From positions 992,001-1,056,000 of the forward strand of contig NZ_CP068595.1 in NCBI RefSeq assembly GCF_016772475.1: 64,000 nt of DNA, given 5' to 3'. The position numbers were made by a program, and so were the translations under genes. Position 1 is the first letter of the stretch. Each line of letters starts with the position of its first letter. This DNA is from Paenibacillus sonchi. Lineage in GTDB: Bacteria; Bacillota; Bacilli; Paenibacillales; Paenibacillaceae. Shown in pieces: positions 46,495-48,948 of the stretch. The notes under the pieces are model-generated. The model did no database searches, was not told the origin of the DNA, and was given only the letters and a program-made list of their open reading frames with translations.

Positions 46495-46613
46495 CGAATT
46501 CTGCCCGCCCGCCAAGCAGAAAAGGATTCGCCGTCCTTGGCTGGAATAGGTAGTTGTTTGGGATTCAGTTAGCTTCGCCTGGAGAACCCTGTTATGAATC
46601 CTTCGGCAATCCC

Positions 46614-46850
46614 AAGTGGAAAAAGGATCACTAATTTGCTCAAGCACCCCTATTCTCCGCAGGTGAGGTGGAAAAAGGATAACTAATTTAACACATTTCG
46701 CCCTTTATCAGGAAATGTGGCCCAATTAAGCTCCCTTTTTCCACTTCAAGCTCACAATTGTTGATTTTGGGGAGAAATAAGTTCCCTTTTTCCAACTAGC
46801 ACTGCTCACCTGCTGCTTCGCAAGCGCCAGTTGGAAAAAGGCGAGCGAAT
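46614..46850. repeat. Cluster of five GTGGAAAAAGG repeat units
   Basis: Units: AAGTGGAAAAAGGATCACTA (46614 on, plus), GAGGTGGAAAAAGGATAACT (46666 on, plus), AAGTGGAAAAAGGGAGCTTA (46746-46724, minus), TAGTTGGAAAAAGGGAACTT (46798-46777, minus), AGTTGGAAAAAGGCGAGCGA (46829 on, plus). Related copies occur near 17142, 17190 and 20040-20062. Confidence 0.75.
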
Positions 46851-47501
46851 CTGGCTGATTTTCCACCCTTTTAAGTGAATTCGCTTAACAAACAGCATAT
46901 AAAATTCTGGCGTAATATTTTCAGAATAAAATTCCCCCTGATTGGTAAATAACAACATGAGACTTACGGCCACAGGGATTCCCACCGCTCCAATATCAAC
47001 CGGGCATGCTGACGACGGATCGTTGTACTTTAGGCAGGCTTAGCGTCCTTTGACTTGCTTAGAGCTCATATTGTTATACCACATGCGCAATGCTCGCCCA
47101 GAGTGTTGTAAAACCACATACACAACCTTGCCCAAAAGTCCATTAAGACATGCATTGGGGGCCGTATGATTATGGTGTGGGTCATTCTGCGGACACGCTG
47201 TGCTCCCTTCGATCCATCCGCAGCCGTTGCGGACAGGAAAGCCGTTATGGATAGAAGATTCGCCTATTCCGCAGGACGGACTGAGATGCCCTTATTTGTC
47301 CCTTTCCCCTTTATTCCAGGCTCCATCGAACGATATAACGGCTCCTGAGTCCGTAACCGCTGAAAAAACAAGATTTTTGGCAAAATAAGGCCCCCTCTGT
47401 CCGCTTCAGTCCGCTGACGGAGCCCCATCCTCCTGCATCGCTTATATCCTCTGAGGCTTCCAAGATCTCCGCATTTTTTGACATTGTATAATTTCCTACA
47501 T

Positions 47502-47533
47502 AAAAAAAAGCCCCCAGCATGAACCGGGGGCCC
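47502..47533 (-). terminator. Terminator of the TIR-like operon
   Basis: Minus strand: GGCCCCCGGTTCATGCTGGGGGC followed by T8, directly after the small partner gene. Confidence 0.9.
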
Positions 47534-47542
47534 TATTTACGG

Positions 47543-47776
47543 TTAAGCAAACGAAGGTTTGTTATTATCAACCTTCCCGCTGATGAGTTTCTTGTATTCG
47601 TCATCTCCACCTTCAAGCGAAGGCGCAATATAGACATTGATGGCTGAAGGCGACAGATTAGTGGGACTTCCGGTCCCTGCCTTGCGCTTCGTGCGGCCTT
47701 TGGCGCCTCTGCTGCTGCCGTTTGCGGTTCGGCGGACAGCACTGGACAAACTTACTGCATTCTTCATGTTCTTCAT
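47543..47776 (-). CDS. Small protein of unknown function, partner of the TIR-like gene
   Basis: 77 residues. The N-terminal half is basic and serine-rich (VRRTANGSSRGAKGRTKRKA); the C-terminal half is acidic to neutral (NVYIAPSLEGGDDEYKKLIS). No signal peptide or membrane helix. It starts four bases after the stop of the TIR-like gene, with GGGAGGGG upstream, and shares its terminator, so the two form an operon. I do not recognise a family. It could be a regulator, an antidote or a nucleic-acid binding accessory of the TIR-like protein; none of this is shown. Confidence 0.7.
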   Translation of the reverse strand: MKNMKNAVSLSSAVRRTANGSSRGAKGRTKRKAGTGSPTNLSPSAINVYIAPSLEGGDDEYKKLISGKVDNNKPSFA

Positions 47777-47780
47777 CGTG

Positions 47781-48782
47781 TCAGTCCCCTCCCACTAAAT
47801 GATTGACGGTACGGAACAAATCCCGGTTGTACGCCACGACCTCGGTCAGATCCTCCGCAGATAATCCGTCGCTTCCGGAAAAATGCACAGAAAGGACATG
47901 CCTCTCACCTAAAGGATAGCATAGGATATAGACCTCAGCAACTTCTGTACGCTGAAAAAAGGTCCATTCCTTGGTCAGAAAAGCCTCAAGCACACCTGGA
48001 CGGGAGCCCTTTTCTTCATTCGGTGAAAATGGATAGGCATGCCCGCGTCCCACATTTCCGCCGACCTGCACCAGAGCTTCCTGCCCGCGGGCCTGCCACA
48101 TGGCCGCACCGATCACCCGGCAGTGCTTGGGAGGCAGAAACGAATTGCGGACCGCTTCGCTGAGCGCCTGGTAATTTTCACGGTCCTCCGGAGAAGTCAC
48201 ATTACTATTATATTGCCAGAAGAAGTGAAGGATACTTTCTTTTCGCCTAAGCTCAAGCTTCAGCTGCTCCAGCTCCTGCTGCGGATCACGGAAGCTGCCG
48301 AGCGCCTGAATGCTGTCGATGATCTTACCGCAGCTGACATCCACAGCAGCCACGGGGTTCTCATGCTGCCATTCGTATTCCAGAGGCGTAAGTCCAGACA
48401 AATCCGAGAGCAGATGATATTCCTCAATATTCTCGCCGGGAATCAGATCCTTGCGAACCGGCACCTGGTCCGGCAGCAGGCAGAAGACGCGGCTCCGCCG
48501 CAGCCTCGCCCAGAACAGCCCCATTTCAAACTGTGTATTGTCACGGGTCACATAATAATATTTGCCGCGGATCCTCGCTACATCATCCGGCGAGAATACA
48601 AATACGGCAAAATCACTCTCATCCAGATGACGTTCGAGCGCTTCCATGGTGTATTCGTTTGCCCGGAAGGCATTGGCATACCACGGATTCACCTGGGCCT
48701 CCCGCTTCAGCTGCTCGTGGATGGCCCGCGCGTAACGGATAGATTCTCTTGAAGATCCAATGAATAATTTCGGTCTGGTCAC
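47781..48782 (-). CDS. TIR-like nucleotide-binding protein with C-terminal GAF-like domain
   Basis: 333 residues. Residues 1-140 match the TIR-like family found in CBASS/Pycsar effectors (PF10137 type): RPKLFIGSSRESIRYARAIH, DESDFAVFVFSPDDV, and RDNTQFEMGLFWARL with the conserved glutamate thought to be catalytic for NAD cleavage in this family. A linker with a short coiled coil (about 185-205) follows. The C-terminal 130 residues (CRVIGAAMWQA, WTFFQRTEVAEVYILCYPLG, HVLSVHFSG) look like a GAF-type ligand-binding fold; this is my reading of the pattern. The start is a GTG with AAAGGAG eight bases upstream; the ATG-initiated longer frame has none. No cyclase gene is adjacent, so a defence role is inferred only. 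Confidence 0.75.
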   Translation of the reverse strand: MTRPKLFIGSSRESIRYARAIHEQLKREAQVNPWYANAFRANEYTMEALERHLDESDFAVFVFSPDDVARIRGKYYYVTRDNTQFEMGLFWARLRRSRVFCLLPDQVPVRKDLIPGENIEEYHLLSDLSGLTPLEYEWQHENPVAAVDVSCGKIIDSIQALGSFRDPQQELEQLKLELRRKESILHFFWQYNSNVTSPEDRENYQALSEAVRNSFLPPKHCRVIGAAMWQARGQEALVQVGGNVGRGHAYPFSPNEEKGSRPGVLEAFLTKEWTFFQRTEVAEVYILCYPLGERHVLSVHFSGSDGLSAEDLTEVVAYNRDLFRTVNHLVGGD

Positions 48783-48948
48783 GTCGGCACTCCTTTGTCG
48801 GCTTCCAATATGTAACAATTATACAGGTGAATGCAATTCTGGAACAGAGGCTGTTTTTCTTTTAAAATTTTAAGCGTCTGCTGTTTCCCTCCGGCAGGAA
48901 CGGGTAATAAACCTTTAACCTATTTCTGAAACGAGGATCTTACATAAT

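Follow-up and report, generated by a model that had tools for sequence, protein, structure and literature searches.

The window analysed here, a 64,000-nucleotide stretch of Paenibacillus sonchi DNA, contains a compact two-gene unit on its minus strand. The larger gene codes for a protein that joins a TIR domain to a GAF-like domain (hereafter TIR–GAF), and its closest named relatives are Paenibacillus proteins. The smaller gene codes for a short partner protein. The features of the locus are as follows.

48818–48823, minus strand: TATAAT, a possible −10 box, found by eye
47781–48782, minus strand: TIR–GAF gene, 333 aa, from the GTG start at 48782 to the stop at 47781 (included)
48375–48770, minus strand: TIR domain of the CAP12/Pycsar type, residues 5–136 (PF10137 match)
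48525–48527, minus strand: Glu86, catalytic-type Glu in the RDNTxFExG motif
47790–48284, minus strand: GAF-like domain with its leading helix, residues 167–331 (predicted fold)
47919–47921, minus strand: Cys288, the invariant Cys of the GAF-like domain
47543–47776, minus strand: partner gene, 77 aa, from the ATG start at 47776 to the stop at 47543 (included)
47546–47635, minus strand: conserved C-terminal tail of the partner (VYIAPSLEGGDDEYKKLISGKVDNNKPSFA), from the partner alignment
47507–47534, minus strand: terminator-like hairpin 3′ of the partner gene, 12 pairs followed by a T tract

Both genes lie where the original prediction had placed them, with the partner ATG following the TIR–GAF stop codon after 4 bases. 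The predicted shared terminator is matched by the terminator-like hairpin at 47534–47507, found in a scan that returned 3 such sites against 2.3 expected. Inspection by eye revealed an AAAGGAG Shine–Dalgarno sequence upstream of the TIR–GAF GTG and GGGAGGGG upstream of the partner ATG at 47776; scanning for promoters did not return a complete sigma-70 site. The dN/dS values are 0.05–0.13 in 8 of 8 pairs for the TIR–GAF gene and 0.05–0.16 in 6 of 8 pairs for the partner gene (two pairs saturated, and two of the six with dS above 1.6), indicating from sequence comparison that purifying selection is acting on both genes.

Downstream of the pair, the short sequence GTGGAAAAAGG / CCTTTTTCCA recurs several times in the gene-poor segment at 46601–46852, in direct as well as inverted orientation. 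The flank had been described as gene-poor and rich in repeats; the former holds and repeats are present, but those at 46601–46852 are few and short.

Domains of the TIR–GAF protein

The Pfam search assigned residues 5–136 to PF10137, the CAP12/Pycsar TIR family, with an E value of 2.1e-22 and 79.8 bits against a curated cut-off of 24.7. This profile search had been proposed beforehand as a check on the TIR-like effector domain, and it bears the assignment out. In agreement, the PADLOC matches of the protein are Effector/PycTIR, and the TIR domain has solved relatives in 9lmq, 8jsj and 7un8. A fold search with the full-length protein, in which the matches were TIR rows, gave SfSTING/TIR-STING as the nearest TIR fold. 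The NCBIfam Cap12 models cover the TIR part only, scoring 75 bits where 450 are needed. Position 86 is Glu in 80 of the 81 aligned rows, with a gap in the remaining one (L068), and we take it to correspond to the catalytic Glu of Cap12. We regard the TIR–GAF protein as a putative NADase.

The remainder of the protein had been said to read like a GAF ligand-binding domain. Structure prediction, the route suggested for checking this, combined with fold comparison recovered a predicted GAF fold with relatives such as 3ci6, 4g3v, CodY and phytochromes; sequence profiles were silent. Pfam found no match at E ≤ 1 in the window protein beyond the TIR domain, GAF models included, and hhalign of the GAF-like domain against eight GAF_2 domains of the same genome reached only 1.2%. 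Own-genome PAS domains yielded nothing useful in the same kind of comparison, and a profile of the GAF part searched against PDB sequences had a best E value of 0.077. Cys288 is invariant in 81 of 81 rows. Moreover, V264, C288 and N319 are invariant across a 27-row alignment that includes six GAF-like domains linked to DUF4062 rather than to TIR.

A partner gene at every TIR–GAF locus inspected

A scan of GTDB contigs yielded 154 confirmed loci, the best 80 of which were analysed. A partner ORF follows the TIR–GAF gene in all 80. Placement by script covered 79 of them, 51 of which show a 4-nt overlap of the partner ORF with the stop; the remaining locus, L105, was read directly. For L090 the script set the start too late (gap +28), an earlier start being present. 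As a control, an ORF of 45–110 aa within −25 to +30 nt of the stop was found after 77 of 752 other genes of at least 200 aa in the same loci, versus 80/80 here. Eighteen further loci from divergent relatives (7 + 6 + 5) all carry a partner ORF by eye, giving 98 of 98 in total; the effector frame is truncated in one of the eighteen, L266. Five genomes with a GAF match escaped the partner profile and had their partner called by eye, and since the profile missed five of the eighteen divergent loci, the motif is weak in them. The neighbourhood survey suggested earlier thus found the presumed accessory gene at all 98 loci, and the pairing looks obligate.

The partner profile was also searched in the class sample, where it matched 38 of 398 genomes, and 26 new loci were fetched. 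An effector match is present in 23 of these (only in part in L153) and absent from L144, L148 and L150. Exceptions to the pairing run one way: a partner without an intact effector occurs, and the reverse was not seen among the 98 loci inspected. L148 retains a GAF domain remnant upstream of an open partner frame, and L150 has a GAF-like scrap upstream, seen by eye, with the partner match lying in an open frame of 90. At L144:1498–1647 there is a lone partner-like gene with no TIR–GAF gene beside it. Weak partner-profile matches occur in G292 and G319.

The C-terminal tail of the partner follows roughly the consensus V-Y-I-G-P-S-V-E-G-x-D-x-E-Y-x-K-V-x-S-G-x-V-x-x-x-K-P-S-F, and its N-terminal part is variable. 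In a set of 81 partners, the median net charge is 0 (range −3 to +4) for the last 30 residues and +9 (range 0 to +13) for the rest of the protein. Of the two faces originally ascribed to the protein, the basic one stands; the acidic half was dropped as a family trait, given the neutral tail. Pfam has no model for the partner, and the partner profile found no match among PDB sequences. A DUF2187 label on one database partner (P0189) was discarded, as Pfam finds nothing there.

Since TIR matches took up the whole of the full-length fold search, the C-terminal part was modelled together with the partner: the GAF domain and partner of one locus (L059) were joined as one chain and judged by pLDDT and pTM. 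In this model (pTM 0.78), the arm at residues 176–208 is disordered with pLDDT below 50, and the tail at residues 211–240 is predicted to be ordered, with block pLDDT of 75–92 and strands at 216–220 and 226–236. Because several of the 80 loci are near-identical, the distance analysis used the 58 left below 90% identity. After controlling for TIR, tail distances correlate with GAF distances at a partial r of 0.74 (permutation p 0.0005), versus −0.01 for tail and TIR distances after controlling for GAF. Restriction to the 52 PSF-type loci narrows the contrast to 0.57 for GAF versus 0.24 for TIR, the permutation test applying to the 58-locus set. This co-variation may partly stem from the GAF segment adjoining the partner gene. 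The single-chain model and the distance correlation both favour, rather than prove, binding of the tail to the GAF domain, and we infer such docking for the family.

Exchange of the effector domain

A relative in genome G154 carries DUF4062 instead of TIR. A database search gave 15 proteins of this DUF4062–GAF type, the query included, and DUF4062 was matched in 13 of 13 aligned sequences (12 database proteins and the query); Pfam finds no DUF4062 in the window protein. The C-termini of these relatives are homologous to the GAF-like domain (hhalign 97.4%, E 9e-12). Furthermore, the small gene is present in 7 of 7 DUF4062–GAF loci, mostly with a GPSVLKGD-like tail that is looser in L234 and L235. 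A 2026 preprint (PMC13174449) reports that DUF4062 is a TIR-like NADase acting against phages under the control of an auxiliary domain.

A different departure was found in the genus labelled g431, where 13 genomes have weak GAF matches (four were read for TIR and three for the partner) and strong ones occur in G942 and G979. The Glu and the RDN motif are gone from the TIR domain in all four genomes read (L267, L268, L269 and L270). The TIR-like domain still matches PF10137 in both cases tested (E 3e-10 and 5e-9), the GAF domain is kept, and the partner is present in all three genomes read for it (L267, L268 and L270). NAD cleavage alone does not explain this retention of GAF domain and partner beside a TIR without the Glu. 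The gene architecture, the pairing and the exchange of effector are themselves direct observations.

Distribution and genomic surroundings

The GAF-domain profile matched 157 of the 324 genomes sampled in the order, and the full TIR–GAF protein was found in 48 of 61 genomes of the same genus, its own included. Matches were found in 39 of 398 genomes of the class sample and in 8 of 398 of the phylum sample, two of these being weak. Genus g24 has no miss among the class-search matches listed and at least one (G894) in the order-wide GAF search. Matches occurred in 33 plasmid records, and only the one in Terribacillus covers most of the protein; phage records gave no match at 1e-5.

Flanks are common within the three largest groups, which by eye comprise 17, 11 and 5 of the best 80 loci, and they are also common to five genomes of genus g24. 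Between groups the flanks differ, and only the partner stays constant. The neighbour scan took in 104 of 228 neighbour ORFs, drawn from 23 loci, and no more than 2 of these 104 proteins matched a PADLOC model at 1e-20 (mad1 and mad3). Weaker matches among the window neighbours (oxidoreductase C3a156, 1.1e-17; Csa3, 4.7e-10; PDC-M60B, 3.5e-6; Cas10, 2.4e-5) are read as general superfamily similarity. The absence of an adjacent nucleotide cyclase, asserted from the start, was borne out: no CD-NTase or PycC cyclase was found in the seven window neighbours (1e-3) or in the 104 neighbour proteins from 23 loci (1e-20). ThsA gave no match among the same scanned neighbours either, and the Thoeris pairing of a TIR protein, ThsB, with ThsA was thus not seen there. 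One locus, L189:44–9395, is a defence island in which type I R-M genes and a PDC-S66/ThsB-like TIR gene are followed by the TIR–GAF pair and then by Wadjet III jetD, jetA and jetB. The suggestion of accessory DNA or a defence island consequently finds a footing in this island and the one plasmid copy, but not in general, given the clade-shared flanks and at most 2/104 PADLOC matches.

Relation to known systems

The TIR–GAF protein shares with CBASS TIR-STING (Cap12) and Pycsar PycTIR a TIR domain of the same PF10137 subfamily fused to another domain. It differs from them in its GAF-like C-terminus, its obligate small partner and the absence of a cyclase gene among the neighbours scanned. Swarozyc, the DUF4062 system of PMC13174449, likewise combines a TIR-like NADase with an auxiliary sensing domain, and relatives of the TIR–GAF protein carry DUF4062 itself. 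As far as the available part of that preprint goes, however, the auxiliary domain is HTH/winged, the trigger is a phage portal and a partner gene is not mentioned, whereas the present unit has a GAF-like domain and a partner. The single-protein TIR defence SpbK resembles the unit as a TIR NADase responding to phage, but the portion of its source available mentions neither a GAF domain nor an obligate partner. Known GAF sensors (3ci6, 4g3v, CodY and phytochromes) share the fold of the C-terminus; unlike them, it has no detectable similarity to the GAF models tried, is joined to TIR or DUF4062 and comes with a partner gene.

TIR or DUF4062 combined with GAF and an obligate tail partner was not found described in the open-access literature searched. 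In PMC7159879, 'GAF domain' occurs twice, both times in the reference list. Fusions of TIR to a sensor are known; what appears to be new is the linkage of a GAF domain and its obligate partner to TIR or DUF4062.

A putative model of the unit

The present data lead us to propose that the two genes constitute one switch, made of a GAF-gated TIR NADase effector and a constant partner subunit, that would stop the cell or the phage; we put its probability at about one half. The large protein would be a TIR-type NAD-consuming effector with its activity set by its own GAF-like domain, and the small protein a constant subunit whose conserved tail docks on that domain. The flexible basic N-terminal arm would stay free, either holding the enzyme off or sensing or tethering something negatively charged. 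A signal would then be received by the GAF domain or the arm, candidates being a phage part, a nucleic acid, a ligand or thiol chemistry at the invariant Cys. Finally, this signal would free the TIR domains to act on NAD, and the cell or the phage would be stopped. In the likeliest arrangement, TIR activity is gated by the GAF domain, to which the partner is attached as a fixed subunit; tail binding and NADase activity, like the direction of control, the trigger and the role in phage defence, are what we infer. In favour of such a switch we count the TIR domain with its catalytic-type Glu, the GAF fold, the 98/98 pairing, the co-variation of tail and GAF domain, the swap to DUF4062 and the L189 island. 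Against it, most scanned copies lie away from strong defence matches, many lie in clade-shared places, and the g431 TIR lacks the Glu.

In a broader version, which we advance tentatively and at somewhat less than even odds, the GAF domain and its docking-tail partner would be a new sensing core, widespread in the order, that is mounted on interchangeable NADase domains (TIR and DUF4062), with the TIR apparently dead in one genus. Such a core would act as a receptor for immunity or stress that is endogenous and stable within clades, and the basic arm or the invariant Cys would do the sensing; it would not be a mobile defence gene.

An endogenous stress or redox switch is the strongest alternative, possible though on balance improbable; here the GAF domain would sense a metabolite, light or thiol state, and the TIR domain would adjust NAD or make a signal for normal physiology. 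It fits the presence in 48 of 61 same-genus genomes, the flanks shared in several clades, the few strong defence matches nearby, the purifying selection, the invariant Cys288 and the missing Glu in 4/4 g431 genomes. It is at odds with flanks that vary between clades while the partner alone is constant, with the plasmid and defence-island copies, with the decayed copies and with the exchange of the effector for another NADase domain. Effector swapping between NADase domains is a pattern typical of conflict systems. Flanks common to a clade and a TIR domain lacking the Glu point to a physiological role, and the changed places, effector swapping, decay and one island to a conflict role; we give a defence-type use somewhat better odds.

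We consider it unlikely that the partner is an antitoxin neutralizing a TIR–GAF toxin. No effector lacks a partner ORF in 98 loci, and a partner-like frame persists at L144, L148 and L150, where no intact effector is matched, as a toxin–antitoxin pair would have it. However, an obligate subunit accounts equally well for the pairing, three exceptions are few and the L153 effector match is partial. In addition, flanks as stable and as widely shared as those of several clades do not resemble an addiction module, and a GAF domain would be superfluous for a plain toxin. Still less credible is a CBASS/Pycsar effector whose cyclase is encoded at another genomic site: the TIR domain does belong to that subfamily, but the C-terminus is predicted to be GAF-like and CD-NTase/PycC matches are absent among the scanned neighbours. 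The notion that the small ORF is open only by chance, as the lack of a Pfam model might suggest, is refuted by the 80/80 versus 77/752 control and the dN/dS of 0.05–0.16 in 6/8 pairs, and the conserved tail speaks against it as well.

Discussion of TIR NADases has centred mostly on phage defence. The unit of TIR–GAF protein and partner considered here occurs frequently, and mainly on chromosomes, in a group of soil bacteria. A GAF domain as the sensor for a TIR domain was not found described, and a tiny partner accompanies it at every locus inspected. The unit may thus offer a compact, testable case of one sensing core driving different NAD-destroying domains, with the relatives that lack the catalytic-type Glu as a natural control for the function of the core without catalysis. 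The host genome (7.78 Mb) contains a second TIR–GAF copy, additional to the 98 loci, which is 45% identical and has its own 110-aa partner. Adjoining this second pair, L001:1962–2810 codes for a 282-aa protein that has no Pfam match at E ≤ 1 and, by eye, contains hydrophobic stretches.
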